Shown here piece after piece: positions 4,727 to 38,698 of a DNA stretch of 64,000 bases (position 1 is the stretch's first letter; the number at the start of each line of letters is the position of its first letter). The stretch is from assembly GCF_024029775.1 (NCBI RefSeq), contig NZ_CP097122.1, positions 924,001 to 988,000 on the forward strand, given 5' to 3'. A program made the position numbers and the translations under genes. The notes below the pieces were generated by a model that was not told the DNA's origin, did not search any database, and saw only the letters and a list, made by a program, of their open reading frames with translations. The stretch is from Fructobacillus americanaquae (GTDB lineage: Bacteria; Bacillota; Bacilli; Lactobacillales; Lactobacillaceae).

Positions 4727-4825
4727 AAGTAAATCAGTTATTTTAAACCTTTGTCTACAAGACGGAGGTTTTTTGTTTGTAATTTATATGAAAAAAGATT
4801 AATATGTTTTTCAGGAGGAAGTTTT

Positions 4826-5839
4826 ATGACGAATGATCAAGGCGACAACCGGCAGAATGCCGCTGTTCATGCACCAAGAACACCGAGTCAACAGAAAATA
4901 CAGGCACATAATCATGGGCATGCCACACCGCAACAGCTATCGCAAAAGCCTTATATTATCGGGATTACCGTTAATCTAGTTTTTGTTTTAAGTGAATTAG
5001 TCTTTGCCAAAGTTGCTCATTCAACAGCCTTGTTTGCAGACGCTTTTCATAATCTGTCTGATGTGTTGGCACTTGTCATTGCTTGGTTAGCCGTTCTCGT
5101 GTTTGCGATCAAGGCGACTAGAAAGAAGACTTATGGTTGGCATAACGTATCGATTTTAGCTTCAATTTTTAATATGATTTTGTTGCTCTTTGCGGTTGGA
5201 ACGATTTTTATCGAAGGGGTTCGTGACTTAATTGCGCCAGGACAAGTTCACACAAACGGGACAATTATCACCATTGTGGCAGCAATCGGAATTGTGGTCA
5301 ATCTAGCAACAGCTCTTTTGTTTAAGGTTTCGAATACACCTGATGAACATGGTCACCAGCATGGTCAGGATTTAAATGCGAAAACGGCCTATCTACACTT
5401 GCTTTCGGATGCTGGGGTTTCGCTTGGCGTCATTGTAGCAGGTTGGTTGATTGATTTGACTGGTTGGCAGATGATTGACCCAATTGTATCGCTGATGATT
5501 GGCGTGATTATCTTGGCTTCTGCTTGGCCAGTGATGCGAGAAACTGTCAATCTAGCGATTAATGCCGTACCGGAGGCGGTTGATGAGTTTGCCATCAGTC
5601 AGTATTTGGTCAGCCAAGCGGGAGTGTTGGCGATGCATGACTTGCATATCTGGCCACTTTCGACTACTGAAACGGCGTTAACAGTGCATTTATCCGTCGC
5701 TGATAATGTTTTTGATCAGGACCACGGTCAGGAATTTTTAACTCAAATTGAGGATGATTTGAAAACAGATTTTGCCATCCAACATGTCACGATTCAGTTA
5801 GAAGCAGCCGAACATCAAGAAAATTGTAATACGATTTAA
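4826..5839 (+). CDS. czcD: Cation diffusion facilitator (CzcD/ZitB-type) metal exporter
   Basis: Proton-coupled efflux of Zn2+ or related divalent cations across the cell membrane. The 337-aa protein has a His-containing N-terminal tail, six predicted membrane helices, the TM2 metal site ADAFHNLSD and TM5 HLLSDAG (HxxxD-type ligands), a His-rich loop HGHQHGQD between TM4 and TM5, and a C-terminal cytoplasmic ferredoxin-like domain containing HDLHIW. The ATG at 4826 follows TCAGGAGGAAG. It lies alone between a sirtuin gene and the mntH cluster. The metal exported cannot be decided from sequence; zinc is the family default. Confidence 0.93.
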   Translation: MTNDQGDNRQNAAVHAPRTPSQQKIQAHNHGHATPQQLSQKPYIIGITVNLVFVLSELVFAKVAHSTALFADAFHNLSDVLALVIAWLAVLVFAIKATRKKTYGWHNVSILASIFNMILLLFAVGTIFIEGVRDLIAPGQVHTNGTIITIVAAIGIVVNLATALLFKVSNTPDEHGHQHGQDLNAKTAYLHLLSDAGVSLGVIVAGWLIDLTGWQMIDPIVSLMIGVIILASAWPVMRETVNLAINAVPEAVDEFAISQYLVSQAGVLAMHDLHIWPLSTTETALTVHLSVADNVFDQDHGQEFLTQIEDDLKTDFAIQHVTIQLEAAEHQENCNTI

Positions 5840-5902
5840 AGTCTTGCCAGTAAAAATGGCCAGCAAAAGTTAATTTCAAGGTGAAATTTAATAAAAGAGA
5901 TA

Positions 5903-5940
5903 AAGCGCTAAGATGACTGTTGTCATGGCGTTTTTCTTTT
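5903..5940 (+). terminator. Terminator after czcD
   Basis: ATGAC-tgtt-GTCAT core, with outer GCGC/GGCG pairing, followed by TTTTTCTTTT. Confidence 0.75.
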
Positions 5941-5980
5941 GCAGTTTTCATGACTACTGGGCATAAAAATTAGTTTGTCC

Positions 5981-6008
5981 TTGACCTGAGCTCTCACCAG
6001 TGTATGAT
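5981..6008 (+). promoter_or_regulatory. Promoter of mntH1
   Basis: TTGACC and TATGAT separated by 16 nt, with TG immediately before the -10. The same TTGACCT start recurs before mntH2. Transcription would begin near 6015, giving a leader of about 215 nt. An arm CCTGAG overlapping the -35 is repeated inverted as CTCAGG at 6017-6022, so a regulator site is possible. Confidence 0.65.
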
Positions 6009-6014
6009 GAACGA

Positions 6015-6137
6015 GAACTCAGGAAGACCAATCGGGTTAACTAGCTTTCATAAGACTTCAAGCTTGTACTTGGCGGACGTTATGAAAATTATTTAGCACT
6101 TGCATCCTTTTCGGCCACAAAATTGCTGGTCTTTTTT
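6015..6137 (+). ncRNA. Structured leader RNA of mntH1 (same fold as 7855-8017)
   Basis: TTTCATAA (6046-6053) pairs with TTATGAAA (6080-6087) and encloses an inner CAAG/CTTG stem with a six-base loop. The 3' strand continues into AATTATTTAGCACTTG, which is identical in the mntH2 leader; the shared block from TTATGAAA is 23 nt. AAGACCA (6024-6030) can pair with TGGTCTT (6127-6133), which runs straight into a six-T tract, so a terminator or closing stem forms around the core. I do not recognise it as yybP-ykoY or M-box. The Lactobacillales lacto-usp motif, known from usp leaders, is a possible relative, but I could not compare it. Confidence 0.6.
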
Positions 6138-6231
6138 GGCATTTTTAGTGGTACTGAAAAAATGATGATTTTCAAGACAATTTAATTCGTTTGATGACTT
6201 CCTGAGGAATCTAATTTTCCAAAGGAGAATC

Positions 6232-7641
6232 ATGATCATGATGGTACAACAAACCACTGATAATCAGCCACATGGCGCATTGCTCACGCAAGGCGGCACT
6301 CAGAATAAAAGCCTGGCACAGGTCAACGGGACAATCGTCGTCCCGAAGTCTGGTTCATTCTGGCGCCGCCTCCTTGCATTTTCAGGGCCGGGCGCATTAA
6401 TCGCTGTCGGCTATATGGACCCTGGCAATTGGGTGACATCCGTTCAGGGAGGGGCATCCTACCACTATCTCTTGATGTCGGTTGTGATGCTATCGGCTGC
6501 TATTGGTATGCTGTTACAGTATTTGGCTGGTAAACTAGGGATCGTAACCCAAGAAGACTTAGCCCAGGCAACGGCTAAAAGAACTAAGAAAGCGACACGG
6601 TATTTTCTCTGGTTGATCACGGAACTGGCCTTGATTGCAACTGATATTGCCGAAGTGGTCGGTGGGGCAATCGCCCTTAACCTGCTCTTTGGCTGGCCGC
6701 TCTTGCTGACCGTTGTCATGACGGCCTTTGATGTCATCTTATTGCTAGGGCTGATGAAGTTCGGCTTTCGTAAAATTGAAGCGATTGTCATGACCCTGAT
6801 TTTAACAATTTTATTTGTTTGCCTATACTTGGTTTTCTTAGCAAAACCTGATTTGGCAGGTGTATTTGGCGGATTATTACCACAAAAAGAAGTGGTTTCA
6901 ACCCGGGCAATTCATGGATTATCGAGTCCGCTGTTTTTAACGGCCGGCATTATTGGTGCCACGGTCACACCGCACAACCTTTACTTGCATTCATCGATTG
7001 TTCAAACCCGCCAAGTTGATCAGGAAAAGCCTGCCGAAATTAAAGAGGCTATCAAGTGGATGGCTTGGGATTCAAACGTCCAGCTGACCATAGCCTTGAT
7101 TGTCAATGCCTTACTCTTAATTGTTGGTGCGGCCCTTTTTTATGGCCACGCCAACCAATTGGCATCATTTAAAGGCATGTACTTGGCCTTAGAAAATCAG
7201 CAAATGGCTGGTGCGATTGCCTCACCAGTGCTCTCAACGTTGTTCGCAGTGGCGCTATTGGCATCCGGGCAAAACTCGACTATTACTGGGACTTTGGCCG
7301 GTGAAATTATTATGGAGGGTTTCTTACACTTTCAGATTCCGATGTGGTTGCGGCGCGTGATTACCCGTGGCGTCGCTTTAATACCAGTGATTGTCATTGC
7401 TGTTTTGTATGGCGGCAATGAACGTGATTTGGATGCTTTGATTACTGGTACGCAAGTTTTCCTTTCTGTTGTTCTACCATTTTCGATGGCACCGTTGCTT
7501 TATTTTACTTCCTCCAAGGAAATCATGGGACAGTTTGTGAACAAAAGAAGTGTGACCATCGTTGGCTGGATTTGCTTTATGGTTCTAACAGTGCTCAATA
7601 TTTGGCTTGTTTTTGAACAAGTAGGTCAGTTTTTTGCTTAA
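6232..7641 (+). CDS. mntH1: NRAMP-family divalent metal transporter with Thr in the TM6 metal site
   Basis: Proton-coupled NRAMP importer, 469 aa, about eleven helices. TM1 carries the metal-binding DPGN (in GYMDPGNWV). In TM6 the canonical M-P-H reads T-P-H: codon ACA at 6970 gives Thr247 where the neighbouring paralogue has Met238. That Met sulfur is a direct Mn2+/Fe2+ ligand and selectivity determinant in characterised NRAMPs, so this copy may move a different ion. AAAGGAG precedes ATGs at 6232, 6238 and 6241; spacing allows any of them. Codon use is less optimised than in mntH2. It is preceded by the leader RNA and followed by 445 nt with a second leader, so it is likely transcribed separately. 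Confidence 0.93.
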   Translation: MIMMVQQTTDNQPHGALLTQGGTQNKSLAQVNGTIVVPKSGSFWRRLLAFSGPGALIAVGYMDPGNWVTSVQGGASYHYLLMSVVMLSAAIGMLLQYLAGKLGIVTQEDLAQATAKRTKKATRYFLWLITELALIATDIAEVVGGAIALNLLFGWPLLLTVVMTAFDVILLLGLMKFGFRKIEAIVMTLILTILFVCLYLVFLAKPDLAGVFGGLLPQKEVVSTRAIHGLSSPLFLTAGIIGATVTPHNLYLHSSIVQTRQVDQEKPAEIKEAIKWMAWDSNVQLTIALIVNALLLIVGAALFYGHANQLASFKGMYLALENQQMAGAIASPVLSTLFAVALLASGQNSTITGTLAGEIIMEGFLHFQIPMWLRRVITRGVALIPVIVIAVLYGGNERDLDALITGTQVFLSVVLPFSMAPLLYFTSSKEIMGQFVNKRSVTIVGWICFMVLTVLNIWLVFEQVGQFFA

Positions 7642-7819
7642 GGAAAATGACAATGATTTCAATTTAATTTAGAATAATTCCTTTTTTTATTGTGAAAAAC
7701 CAGGGAAAATCAGAAAAAGATTAAGTGAAATTTAAATCATTTATGATTCTTTAAGATTGGTATAGCGGTCTTTTGACTGAAAATGTTACAATTGGTTTGC
7801 AACATTACAAAAATATCAC
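7642..7819 (+). other. Intergenic region between mntH1 and the mntH2 promoter
   Basis: AT-rich with no gene. A Fur/PerR-like AT-rich stretch lies at about 7648-7670. AATGTT (7782-7787) and AACATT (7801-7806) form an inverted repeat with a 13-nt spacer ending 14 nt before the -35 of mntH2, a possible metalloregulator site. It is absent upstream of mntH1. No convincing terminator was found after mntH1. Confidence 0.4.
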
Positions 7820-7848
7820 TTGACCTTAGAATTGTCAGGTGTAATACT
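7820..7848 (+). promoter_or_regulatory. Promoter of mntH2-usp
   Basis: TTGACC (7820-7825), 17-nt spacer, AATACT (7843-7848) with an upstream TGt extension. The -35 and following bases match those of mntH1, indicating that promoter and leader were duplicated together with the gene. Confidence 0.6.
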
Positions 7849-7854
7849 TACTAT

Positions 7855-8017
7855 AGACTTAGGAAGAAGTCATTGAGTTAAGTAGCTTTCATAAGCTTTC
7901 AACAACCAAGTTGAATGAAATCCTTTATGAAAATTATTTAGCACTTGAAAAAAATACATGGTGGATTGACCGGTCTGCCTAAATTTCAATGAGATCAGGG
8001 TGGAAGACTGCTTTTTT
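7855..8017 (+). ncRNA. Structured leader RNA of mntH2 (paralogue of 6015-6137)
   Basis: TTTCATAA (7887-7894) pairs with TTATGAAA (7925-7932). The inner stem is TTCAAC/GTTGAA with a six-base loop, whereas the mntH1 leader has CAAG/CTTG, so one base pair is compensated (G-C to C-G). AAGAAGTC (7864-7871) pairs 7/8 with GACTGCTT (8006-8013) entering a six-T run, again compensated relative to mntH1. TCATTGA (7870-7876) can also pair with TCAATGA (7986-7992). Conservation of core and change of flanks argue for selection on RNA structure. The 70 nt from here to the mntH2 start contain two purine-rich ribosome-binding-like tracts. Confidence 0.6.
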
Positions 8018-8087
8018 ACTTTGGTCGTTTTTTCGAGTGAGAATTTAATTGCTTTGTCCCTAAGGAGAATTCCGAAGGAGAGATATT

Positions 8088-9476
8088 ATGGATAATCCCG
8101 TAAAGAAGAGCCATTCCCTTATCGAACACACGGGCGATAAGAGTTTGCAAGAAGTAAACGGCACGATTGAAGTGCCAAAGGGCGCCCCTTTTTGGCGGCG
8201 CTTGCTGGCATTCTCAGGCCCTGGTGCCCTGGTTGCCGTGGGTTACATGGATCCAGGTAATTGGGTAACGTCAGTAGCCGGTGGTGCTTCTTACCACTAC
8301 CTGTTGCTGTCAATTGTTTTGATTTCTTCACTGATTGCGATGCTTTTGCAATACATGGCTGGTAAGTTAGGTATTGTGAAACAAGAAGATTTGGCTCAGG
8401 CTACTGGTAACCGAACGAACAAGTTTGGCCGTTACTCACTTTGGGTGATGACGGAGTTAGCCTTGATTGCAACGGACATCGCCGAAGTTGTCGGTGGTGC
8501 CATTGCCTTGAACTTGCTCTTTGGCTGGCCACTTCTGATCACGGTGTTCTTGACGGCTCTTGATGTTATCTTACTGTTGTTGCTGATGAAGTTCGGTTTC
8601 CGTAAGATAGAAGCGATTGTGATGACTTTGATTATGACCATCCTGGTTGTTTTCATTTATCTGACAATCTTGTCAAAGCCTGACTGGGCATCATTGTTCT
8701 ATGGCTATGTGCCACAACCAAAGGTGATTTCACCTGAATCACTGAAGGGACTGCAGAGTCCTTTGATCTTGACCGCTGGTATCATTGGTGCCACGGTCAT
8801 GCCACACAACTTGTACTTGCACTCATCAATTTCACAAACTCGTAAGGTTGATCATGAAAACCCTGAAGAAGTTCATGATGCTGTCAGGTTGATGACTTGG
8901 GATTCAAACATCCAATTGACGTTAGCCTTTGTGGTGAACACTTTGCTTTTGGTTGTTGGTGCCGCCTTGTTCTTCGGACATGCTCAAGAATTGGACTCAT
9001 TTAAGTCCATGTATAATGCCTTGGGTGACACAAAGATTGCCGGTGCGATTGCCTCACCAATCTTGTCAACGTTGTTTGCCCTGGCCTTGTTGGCTTCCGG
9101 ACAAAACTCAACAATTACTGGTACTTTGACCGGTGAAATTATCATGGAAGGTTTCTTGCACTTACGTGTGCCAATGTGGCTCCGTCGTGTCATTACCCGT
9201 GGAATCGCCTTGGTTCCGGTTTTGGCGATTACCATTATTTACGGTGGTAACGAAGCTCAGTTGGATAACCTGATTACTGCCACACAGGTCTTCTTGTCAA
9301 TTGCCTTGCCATTCTCAATGGCACCATTAATCTACTTTACTTCTTCAAAGAAGATTATGGGCGAATATGCTAACCGTAAGTGGATTACTTGGACTGGTTG
9401 GATTTGTTTTGCTGTCTTGACTGCCATTAATGTTTGGTTGGTTCTTGACCAATTCTTCCCACAATATTTCGGATAA
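8088..9476 (+). CDS. mntH2: NRAMP-family Mn2+ (Fe2+) transporter
   Basis: Proton-dependent manganese importer, 462 aa, closely related along its whole length to the adjacent mntH1 but with canonical metal ligands: DPGN in TM1 and M-P-H (Met238) in TM6. Codon use is strongly biased to TTG, GGT and AAG, suggesting high expression, as expected for LAB that accumulate manganese. GAAGGAG lies eight bases before the ATG. A universal stress protein gene follows after 55 nt in what looks like one transcript. Control is presumably through the leader RNA and any metalloregulator at the promoter. Confidence 0.95.
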   Translation: MDNPVKKSHSLIEHTGDKSLQEVNGTIEVPKGAPFWRRLLAFSGPGALVAVGYMDPGNWVTSVAGGASYHYLLLSIVLISSLIAMLLQYMAGKLGIVKQEDLAQATGNRTNKFGRYSLWVMTELALIATDIAEVVGGAIALNLLFGWPLLITVFLTALDVILLLLLMKFGFRKIEAIVMTLIMTILVVFIYLTILSKPDWASLFYGYVPQPKVISPESLKGLQSPLILTAGIIGATVMPHNLYLHSSISQTRKVDHENPEEVHDAVRLMTWDSNIQLTLAFVVNTLLLVVGAALFFGHAQELDSFKSMYNALGDTKIAGAIASPILSTLFALALLASGQNSTITGTLTGEIIMEGFLHLRVPMWLRRVITRGIALVPVLAITIIYGGNEAQLDNLITATQVFLSIALPFSMAPLIYFTSSKKIMGEYANRKWITWTGWICFAVLTAINVWLVLDQFFPQYFG

Positions 9477-9531: not shown

Positions 9532-9993
9532 ATGGCTGAATTAAAATTAGATGTAGAACCAAAGCAATTTAAGACAATTCTTGTTGGTGTTGATGAATCA
9601 GAGCAAGGCTACCACGCCTTGTCAAACGCAATTCACCAAGCTCGTGAAGATAATTCGCAATTAATTATTGCGACAATTTTGGAAATGGGGGACTTGTCAA
9701 CGATTTCCGCTTTACACTTAGACTTCATCAAAGAAAAGCGTCAAGAATTGGAAAACAATCTGGTTAAGTACCGTGATTATGCACTTTCACAAGGATTGAA
9801 AAACGTGAAAGTTGTCTTTGACGACGGTATCAAGGCTGGTGAAATTTTAAACGATGAAATCGCACCACAGGTTGGGGCTGATTTAATCGTTGTTGGGGCT
9901 CACTCACATGAAGGCTTCTTTGAATCAATCGGTTCACAGGCTGCTTACATCGCCCGTAACGCTAAAATTTCTGTTTTGATCGTTAAGGATTAA
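9532..9993 (+). CDS. usp: Universal stress protein, UspA family
   Basis: Cytoplasmic nucleotide-binding stress protein of 153 aa. N-terminal ILVGVDESEQG and the C-terminal VGAHSHEGFFESIGSQAAYIA block, ending in ISVLIV, correspond to the ATP-binding Usp fold (GxHG-type loop altered to GAHSHEG). CTGGAGGC precedes the ATG. It is co-directional with mntH2 and precedes a terminator, so mntH2-usp is probably a bicistron. Exact role is unknown; the pairing with an Mn importer suggests a metal or oxidative stress link. Confidence 0.92.
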   Translation: MAELKLDVEPKQFKTILVGVDESEQGYHALSNAIHQAREDNSQLIIATILEMGDLSTISALHLDFIKEKRQELENNLVKYRDYALSQGLKNVKVVFDDGIKAGEILNDEIAPQVGADLIVVGAHSHEGFFESIGSQAAYIARNAKISVLIVKD

Positions 9994-10114: not shown

Positions 10115-10732
10115 ATGATAGCAACGTTAATGACAGGATTTTTTTCATATTTAGGAACAACATCAGATTATTTCGTGATTTTAGTTTTACTATTTGCCAC
10201 TTTTCGTCAGAAGTCGCAGGTCCGGCCAATTGTTTTGGGTGCCTATCTCGGGAACGCTCTGTTAGTGGGAGTCGCTTTGTTAATTGGTGGTGTACTCAAG
10301 CAAATACCTGCCGAATGGCTTTTAGGATTTTTAGGCCTGGTGCCGATTGCGATTGGCTTGAAAAATTATTTCTCAGATGAGGAAGAAGAGGAGGGCGAGG
10401 TTTTTGTTACTAAGGTTCAAGAAACACCGCATCAACGAATTATTTTGACAGTGGTTTGGATGACGATTGCTGGCTGTGGTGCTGATAACCTTGCGCTCTA
10501 TATTCCTTATTTCTTATTAGCTAATTGGTTAGTCTTACCGATTATCTTTTTAATGTTTACAGTCATTTTGACAAGTTGCATTTTCCTGGCTTACCGATTA
10601 GCAAAGGTGCAAAAGGTTCAAAATTTCTTCGAACGTTATGGTGATTTTATGCAATTACTGGTCTATGTAGTCTTGGGGATTTACATTTTATTTGATGCTG
10701 GAACGGTGACACACTTACTTTCCTTGTTATAA
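10115..10732 (+). CDS. cadD: CadD-family cadmium resistance transporter
   Basis: Five-helix membrane protein of 205 aa of the CadD family, which confers cadmium resistance in staphylococci and LAB. Matches include the N-terminal helix with TSDYFVILVLLF, the GAYLGNALLVG helix, an acidic cytoplasmic loop DEEEEEGE, and the VVWMTIAGCGADNLALYIPYF segment. AAAGGAGC precedes the ATG. It is followed after 7 nt by an ArsR repressor gene, the usual cadDC arrangement. Metal specificity (Cd versus Zn or others) is inferred from the family. Confidence 0.92.
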   Translation: MIATLMTGFFSYLGTTSDYFVILVLLFATFRQKSQVRPIVLGAYLGNALLVGVALLIGGVLKQIPAEWLLGFLGLVPIAIGLKNYFSDEEEEEGEVFVTKVQETPHQRIILTVVWMTIAGCGADNLALYIPYFLLANWLVLPIIFLMFTVILTSCIFLAYRLAKVQKVQNFFERYGDFMQLLVYVVLGIYILFDAGTVTHLLSLL

Positions 10733-10739
10733 TAGGGAT

Positions 10740-11090
10740 ATGAAAAAAGATGTCCAACATGAATTAAGTATAATTTTCAAATTGCTGGGGTCGGAAAGGC
10801 GCTTAGCAATTCTAGCCCTATTGCGCGAGAAACCTTGTTCGGTTTCTGAAATTGTGGATCAGCTCTCGATGGAGCAGTCTGCCGTTTCTCATCAGCTACA
10901 AATGCTTCGAGAGGCACAGGTTGTCACGGTGGAAAAAGTGGGACGGTCTGTCTACTATCAGCTGAATGATTCCCATATTTTAACCTTGCTCAATAATGCC
11001 GAGCATCATGTGGACCACGTTTTGCGGGAAATGAGCCACGCTGAAGCGGTGGCTGAAGAGCAAGCCGCAGCCAAGAAAAACCACAAATAA
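10740..11090 (+). CDS. cadC: ArsR/SmtB-family metal-sensing repressor
   Basis: 116-aa winged-helix repressor. Recognition region SVSEIVDQLSMEQSAVSHQLQMLREAQVV is followed by a beta wing (VGRSVYYQLND). The C-terminal helix carries HILTLLNNAEHHVDHVL, fitting an alpha5-type metal site with several His, and Cys32 (KPCSV) could join a thiol site. It is probably co-transcribed with cadD and autoregulated through the palindrome at 10041-10067. The symbol is by context; the sensed metal is not determined. Confidence 0.85.
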   Translation: MKKDVQHELSIIFKLLGSERRLAILALLREKPCSVSEIVDQLSMEQSAVSHQLQMLREAQVVTVEKVGRSVYYQLNDSHILTLLNNAEHHVDHVLREMSHAEAVAEEQAAAKKNHK

Positions 11091-38035: not shown

Positions 38036-38389
38036 GGGCTCGTCTTGGAATTCGACAGGCTGTTACGAGCATTAGCTGCATTCCGCCATCCGGGCGTAAA
38101 GCGGGCAGACATTTAACTGCAAAAAACAATAACTCTTACGCTGTCGCTGCCTAAAAACCAGTGATTCGTAGCCAAGATGGTTATGCTGACATGGTGGTCT
38201 TGGTTTAATAAATGGTCAGATCGGCTTAATGGTGATGCCTGCACGATTAAGTTTAAATCAATTAGGTTCCCAGTCAGAGTCAAGTTCTGGACAATGACTG
38301 CTTTGGCTGTGGTAACAATCATTGCCCTATGAATGTAGACGCTAGTGTGGCGGGCGGTTTGGACAGGGGTTCGACTCCCCTCGAGTCCA
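38036..38389 (+). ncRNA. ssrA: tmRNA
   Basis: 354-nt transfer-messenger RNA. The 5' end GGGCTCG pairs with the 3' CGAGTCC; tRNA-like TTGGAATTCGACAGG and T arm CAGGGGTTCGACTCCCCT are present. The tag ORF at 38119-38154 reads AKNNNSYAVAA then TAA, of the Leuconostocaceae type. CCA is not encoded. It rescues stalled ribosomes with SmpB. The 3' end is a common integration site. Confidence 0.97.
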
Positions 38390-38698
38390 TTAGTACTATC
38401 AGGAGACGTCAAGAGACGTCAAAAATCCCAGTTTTAAGCTATTTTGTTTTTTTGACCGTCACTGAACGTCACTGACAATCAATAAAAGTAGAGGATAAAA
38501 AACACTTGCACCGCAGCAATGTGACGGCTTTTATAGCCGTTTTTATTTTGTCCAAAATATGCAAGAATTGCAAAGGGTAGCGGATATTGTTATATTGTCA
38601 GAATTCAATGCCGAAACGGGAACGGGTTTAGATAATCAGCTATCGTGCTTATAAGCATGCAGGTTGTGAAACGCATTTAAAAGTGCGCTTTTTTGTTT
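38390..38698 (+). other. Possible integration-site remains downstream of tmRNA
   Basis: Directly after ssrA come tandem GAGACGTCAA units (38402-38421) and, about 40 nt on, CCGTCACTGAACGTCACTGA, resembling clustered integrase arm-type sites. A terminator ACGGC ttttata GCCGTTTTTATTTT (38522-38550) and another CGCATTT/AAGTGCG T6 (38672-38694) follow, plus a 12-bp palindrome TGCTTATAAGCA at 38646-38657. No integrase and no second copy of the ssrA 3' end is in the window. Confidence 0.45.

Follow-up and report, generated by a model that had tools for sequence, protein, structure and literature searches.

Lactic acid bacteria rely on large manganese pools against oxygen damage, and several classes of leader RNA have been described before genes for metal transporters. 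The translational form of the yybP-ykoY riboswitch, found for example before mntP, adopts a fold that is stabilized by Mn2+ and prevents sequestration of the ribosome site (PMC9315381, in the part of the article accessible to us). According to the same part of that article, the 5' UTR of Salmonella mntH contains a Mn2+ riboswitch that exerts MntR-independent control and forms a Rho-independent terminator (PMC9315381). The M-box magnesium riboswitch, as stated in the accessible part of PMC4072509, occurs before Nramp-related genes (NrmT).

Here we have analyzed a stretch of 64,000 nucleotides of the Fructobacillus americanaquae genome (the window), in which each of two tandem mntH genes is preceded by a leader containing a long single hairpin (P2) and a 5'-terminal helix (P1). 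This leader resembles yybP-ykoY in preceding a metal-transporter gene, the ribosome site being what the Mn2+-stabilized fold of yybP-ykoY keeps from sequestration (PMC9315381, accessible part); it differs from yybP-ykoY in its architecture of one long hairpin plus P1, in its position before a likely importer rather than an exporter, and in giving no match to the yybP-ykoY model at the gathering threshold or up to an E-value of 10. Like the Salmonella riboswitch it leads an mntH importer gene, but the accessible description of the latter sets the two apart, with a terminator there and pairing of the Shine-Dalgarno region here (PMC9315381). With the M-box, which is a metal riboswitch, it shares the position 5' of an Nramp-family gene (PMC4072509, accessible part), whereas the M-box model does not match and the genes here are strong Nramp members (about 1e-100). 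The initial annotation had proposed Lacto-usp (RF01710) as the nearest known name, by gene context only. Lacto-usp is likewise an RNA of the Lactobacillales (PMC2864571, accessible part) and a usp gene follows mntH2 here, but the element precedes mntH instead of usp and gives no match to the Lacto-usp model.

The Rfam scans bear out the earlier impression that neither yybP-ykoY nor M-box is present. No Rfam family matched the leaders of the window at the gathering threshold, and a scan of 5600-8400 up to an E-value of 10 returned seven sub-threshold matches, none of them to yybP-ykoY, M-box or Lacto-usp. At the gathering threshold, 18 homologous loci yielded only five tRNAs, and the 4227 families of Rfam 15 gave no match at E <=1 in the leader regions of a Leuconostoc locus (L086, 5100-5400) and a Weissella locus (L095, 4310-4510). 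The leader is thus an RNA family outside Rfam. No description of it was found in the literature searched, the coverage of which was incomplete, especially for subscription papers. The features of the locus are as follows.

5981-6008, forward strand: promoter of mntH1, sigma-70-type, TTGACC-16-TATGAT (promoter-like site scan)
6018-6035, forward strand: P1 5' strand of the mntH1 leader, near the predicted transcript start (cognate-versus-permuted duplex energies)
6036-6097, forward strand: P2 hairpin, mntH1 subtype (R1 match 6033-6101, 44 bits, E 1.5e-6; pair counts)
6187-6206, forward strand: P1 3' strand of mntH1, with the predicted anti-Shine-Dalgarno at 6199-6203 (duplex energies, folds)
6221-6227, forward strand: Shine-Dalgarno of mntH1 (sequence; pairs with 6199-6203 once the 5' arm is barred)
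6232-7641, forward strand: mntH1, Nramp (PF01566, 4.1e-102)
7820-7848, forward strand: promoter of mntH2, TTGACC-17-AATACT (promoter-like site scan)
7858-7876, forward strand: P1 5' strand of the mntH2 leader (cognate-versus-permuted duplex energies)
7877-7942, forward strand: P2 hairpin of the mntH2 leader, main type (R1 match 7874-7946, 99.8 bits)
8045-8064, forward strand: P1 3' strand of mntH2, including 8059-8061, the partner of the Shine-Dalgarno in folds with the 5' arm barred (duplex energies, folds)
8075-8080, forward strand: Shine-Dalgarno of mntH2 (sequence; fold with the 5' arm barred)
8088-9476, forward strand: mntH2, Nramp (PF01566, 4.2e-105)
9532-9993: usp gene after mntH2

The element therefore exceeds the segment 6015-8017 in which the twin leaders had been noticed, reaching the Shine-Dalgarno sequence of each gene. 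The mntH2 leader closely resembles that of F. tropaeoli and that of Fructobacillus sp. EFB-N1, differing from them at scattered positions. A promoter-like site lies before each mntH in the window. Of the 55 distinct leaders, 44 have such a site with a score of at least 9/12 and its -10 box ending 20-34 nt before the hairpin, against a mean of 6.1 and a maximum of 13 in shuffles. The distance from the end of the -10-like box to P2 is 20-30 nt, mostly 24-29 nt; because of this fixed spacing, and because the P1 5' strand runs up to the foot of P2, P1 should start at about the first transcribed base.

The P2 hairpin and the P1 closing helix

The sequence features on which the initial annotation had built are present: the twin leaders contain TTTCATAA/TTATGAAA, the inner stems CAAG/CTTG versus CAAC/GTTG, and an exact common 16-mer, AATTATTTAGCACTTG, at 6087-6102 and 7932-7947. 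Folded singly, the first leader (6012-6140) is as stable as its shuffles (z 0.02) and the second is somewhat more stable (z -2.29), so that the case for a leader RNA rests on comparison. A pattern search of 201 Lactobacillaceae genomes supplied diverged matches as starting homologues, and the covariance model R1 was built from 18 homologues, three of the mntH1 subtype being left out. R1 has strong matches in 57 of 397 Lactobacillaceae genomes, in seven genera, and together with the compensatory changes described below this distribution means that the resemblance of the twin leaders is not due to chance. Weak matches in three further genomes (G166, G366 and G028), which would have brought the count to 60/397, were rejected on inspection, as were those at L142-L146 (E 0.02-0.07), where there is no mntH downstream and the motif is absent by eye.

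In the model, the stem of P2 is made up of segments of 9, 8 and 6 bp; a 1-nt mismatch separates the first from the second and an asymmetric internal loop (3 versus 9 nt) the second from the third, which is the tip and carries a variable loop. The mntH1 subtype has, by eye, a long (3') side of the internal loop that is 4 nt shorter. Pairs were counted over 46 distinct rows after the E limit had been lowered from 0.01 to 0.001, which excludes antisense matches of the near-palindrome at L088 and L121, and with the partial match at L090 left out. In an alignment fitted to the model, which favors the structure, 96.2% of cells are paired, and both sides of the pair have changed in 29 cells at 8 pairs; none of 500 shuffles reached any of the five measures, so the covariation analysis over mntH leaders supports the P2 pairing. 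Controls with the pairing slid gave at most 51% paired cells and at most 4 pairs with a both-side change. In the smaller MAFFT alignment A3, 97.6% of P2 is paired and five cells have a both-side change, the two pairs involved not being above shuffles (63/500 reach as many). Slid controls and MAFFT alignment point the same way as the fitted one. Six contiguous base pairs, UCAUAA/UUAUGA, are invariant over the 46 rows, a conservation that goes beyond pairing.

Two further features of the hairpin region were considered. In 46/46 distinct rows, the P2 3' strand contains a short reading frame of five codons, which opens with ATG and closes with TAG or TAA (6082-6096 and 7927-7941 in the window). 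It was not taken as a gene because the invariant paired columns cover its ATG and the greater part of the stop codon and no Shine-Dalgarno is visible by eye; it is probably a by-product of those paired bases. A AAAGUGAAUA-like element lies 3' of P2 (e.g., in L086 and L137) in 27 of the 55 distinct leaders, mostly of Leuconostoc and Weissella; none of the Convivina or Fructobacillus mntH2 leaders has it. Its partner may be the CACUU that immediately follows P2, or it may dock at another site.

P1 is formed between the transcript's predicted first ~20 nt and a strand that lies immediately 5' of the Shine-Dalgarno. Its pairs differ between leaders: CTCAGGAAG with CTTCCTGAG in mntH1, CTTAGG with CCTAAG in mntH2, AATAGCCGA with TCGGCTATT in L. 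carnosum, and TGGGAGTATATCC with GGATATATCCCA in W. oryzae. Tests of P1 required a found start codon and 120 nt upstream of it, available for 63 of 65 rows (55 distinct). Among type I leaders (n=34), the mean duplex energy is -16.7 kcal/mol for cognate strands versus -12.5 kcal/mol for permuted ones, with 0/5000 permutations as good; the corresponding figures are 0/5000 for Leuconostoc, Convivina and others (n=17), 0/5000 for Weissella and Paucilactobacillus (n=15), 8/5000 for Fructobacillus (n=17) and 22/5000 for the W. kandleri group with W. halotolerans (n=6). Within the Fructobacillus mntH2 leaders the support is weak (545/5000) because these sequences are alike. When each arm was compared with every one of the 43 other downstream regions at their full and unequal lengths, the cognate mean was -17.3 versus -13.7, and an arm's own region was often not the best, 0 to 39 non-cognates being as good. 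RNAalifold on 13 whole Weissella and Paucilactobacillus leaders recovered P2 and not P1. P2 covariation and P1 cognate energies support that mntH is preceded, as originally proposed, by an RNA under selection that acts in cis, whose pairing is conserved and which, by the scans above, has no match in Rfam. Like a riboswitch, the P1/P2 leader is a conserved structured leader with covariation.

Other pairings of the 5' arm were also scored. In Leuconostoc and its relatives, pairing with the 30 nt that follow the hairpin seemed convincing on inspection for some species, yet 3126/5000 permutations were as good, and this candidate was dropped; in Weissella the count was 20/5000, but the segment tested there coincides in part with the P1 3' region. 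With a middle segment of the Leuconostoc leaders it was 6/5000, and a further competing helix in the leader is therefore possible.

Shine-Dalgarno access and the proposed switch

Each of the 55 distinct leaders, extended by 33 nt into the coding sequence, was folded as an ensemble with the 5' arm either free or barred from pairing. Barring the arm lowered the mean unpaired probability of the Shine-Dalgarno from 0.56 to 0.32; in 38/55 leaders the arm made the site more accessible by over 0.05, and in 3/55 less accessible, one of these three being the mntH2 leader of the window (0.34 with the arm, 0.40 without). With the arm barred, the Shine-Dalgarno pairs mainly with the P1 3' strand in 48/55 leaders, although this strand makes up on average a quarter of the downstream segment, and is thus the predicted anti-Shine-Dalgarno. 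In the window, 6223-6227 pairs with 6199-6203 in mntH1 and 8076-8078 with 8059-8061 in mntH2. Compared with dinucleotide-shuffled downstream segments, the unpaired probability is 0.32 versus 0.45, being lower in 45/55 leaders (Wilcoxon 1.5e-6, with rows that are not independent); for mntH2 of the window, sequestration is no stronger than in the shuffles (0.40 versus 0.33; 13/24 shuffles as low). With P1 formed, the Shine-Dalgarno of mntH1 is predicted to lie in a small local hairpin, and the minimum-energy fold leaves P2 not whole.

P2, P1 and the predicted competition for the Shine-Dalgarno are supported by comparative computation. We infer that this competition regulates translation in cells and that P2 senses a signal, and likewise what that signal is. 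A translational leader switch is likely: the first ~20 nt and the strand upstream of the Shine-Dalgarno would form P1, enclosing P2 with its conserved asymmetric internal loop. With P1 formed, the anti-Shine-Dalgarno would be occupied and the ribosome site freer; with P1 open, its 3' strand would pair with the Shine-Dalgarno and hide the ribosome site. P2 would be the likely sensing part, and the signal would most likely be Mn2+, or a linked metal or peroxide signal, such that plentiful manganese gives less MntH. As a whole, a cis-regulatory leader RNA that switches mntH translation, with P2 sensing and Mn2+ as the likeliest signal, is the best explanation and a reasonably probable one; Mn2+ taken by itself falls a little short of an even chance. 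It should be noted that ligand binding in riboswitches usually stabilizes P1. A ligand that followed this rule would turn expression on, which would be odd for an importer repressed by Mn2+.

An alternative that we consider unlikely, although it is the strongest of those weighed, is that P2 is bound by a protein, such as an RNA-binding sensor of metal or redox state, and that this protein shifts the balance between P1 and the anti-Shine-Dalgarno, the RNA itself not being the sensor. A protein site could explain the invariant UCAUAA/UUAUGA, which pairing alone does not, but a ligand pocket would explain the same invariance. Rather improbable is a constitutive 5' stem that responds to no signal and protects the transcript against 5'-end-dependent decay or modulates the access of ribosomes: P1 does begin at about the predicted 5' end of the transcript, but the conserved P2 loop and the enrichment of the anti-Shine-Dalgarno in the P1 3' strand would then be unexplained.

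The initial annotation had suggested a metal riboswitch with a terminator platform, in which a closing stem (AAGACC/GGTCTT versus AAGAAGTC/GACTGCTT) runs into a T tract, or else a short autonomous RNA. Transcription attenuation by a fold-dependent terminator before mntH now appears very unlikely. A terminator-like site does lie in the mntH2 leader at 7993-8026 (one of four sites in 5800-8150 on both strands, 2.4 being expected), and by eye several of the Fructobacillus leaders, and also that of L. fallax (L046), again show a GGYC-plus-T-run, so that the T run is not explained away. The proposed closing stem, however, pairs no better in cognate than in permuted combinations: for the 5' arm and the T-tract segment the energies are -7.35 versus -7.56 kcal/mol in Fructobacillus mntH2 leaders (n=12; 3474/5000 permutations as good), and 1873/5000 permutations are as good in the mntH1 leaders (n=5). 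In most Leuconostoc leaders, moreover, the T runs fall by eye inside the P1 3' strand. The closing helix that is conserved instead adjoins the Shine-Dalgarno from upstream, which suggests an action on translation. That the RNA is short and autonomous is disfavored since P1 spans the 5' UTR up to the mntH start and mntH lies directly downstream in 43/44 named loci, the 44th (L087) ending at the edge of its stretch. Finally, a DNA operator in which a repressor binds the repeated TTTCAT/ATGAAA elements is highly improbable, because these inverted repeats, strongly conserved just after the promoter as they are, lie within a hairpin that shows compensatory changes and a variable loop, and distant P1 partners co-change.

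Distribution and gene context

The family appears to be confined. An R1 search of the order gave matches in 8/395 genomes at E <=0.01, all of the same family, and a search of 398 genomes of the phylum at E <=0.001 gave only the window's own; both searches were filtered, and weak matches may be lost in them. An exact pattern was found in 44 stretches of the GTDB species collection, all Lactobacillaceae records with some species repeated, from Fructobacillus, Leuconostoc, Weissella, Convivina, Paucilactobacillus and two unclassified.

A search of 21 genomes with a laxer filter yielded 25 RNA copies in 19 genomes. By coordinates, 23/25 copies stand just before an Nramp gene and 2/25 before a gene for a DyP-type peroxidase, in the W. 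confusa-like genomes G381 and G395 (loci L133 and L136); the assignment rests on PF20628 (1.8e-40, Pfam on L136) for G395 and on a near-identical start for G381. Three distant Nramp relatives (E about 1e-25) in the searched genomes have no RNA match. High-scoring Nramp genes with no RNA match nearby occur in G055, G113, G220, G356, G365, G381 and G395, and these 7/21 genomes all belong to g18, apparently Weissella.

A protein with PF02742, the DtxR/MntR-type C-terminal domain, which is not always MntR, is encoded in 145/201 genomes of the family. By genus, it is found in 0/9 genomes of g1 (the genus of the window), 0/7 of g16, 0/2 of g6, 0/2 of g39, 1/1 of g7, 4/7 of g18 and 6/7 of g2. Among the matches listed, 5/28 RNA carriers (G007, G137, G184, G074 and G101) have it versus 140/173 other genomes, a comparison that one clade dominates and whose Fisher value of 1.2e-10 ignores shared ancestry. 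The five genera g9, g26, g28, g29 and g37 have neither RNA nor PF02742. Both the genes that follow the RNA and the missing regulator are suggestive of metal or oxidative signaling, with Mn2+ first, and since a peroxidase and a manganese importer would both be wanted when manganese is scarce, the context is consistent with a switch that high Mn2+ turns off. In the 23/28 carriers, among the matches listed, that have no DtxR/MntR-type regulator, the RNA family may do that job. Tentatively, and with more doubt than for the switch itself, the leader could be a translational Mn2+ riboswitch of a new class, seen to date only in Paucilactobacillus and the former Leuconostocaceae, which would have taken charge of manganese uptake where the protein repressor MntR was lost, and of a DyP peroxidase in W. 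confusa-like genomes. The family would provide a testable answer to how manganese import is controlled in lactic acid bacteria, with a fold absent from Rfam and next to an importer rather than an exporter.

Other metal genes surround the mntH locus of the window: a cation-efflux (CDF) gene lies 5' of mntH1 (within 4751-5839), and the usp gene is followed by a Cad-family cadmium transporter and an ArsR-type regulator (10115-11090). Elsewhere in the window there is a tmRNA gene (38036-38392; RF00023, 135.1 bits).
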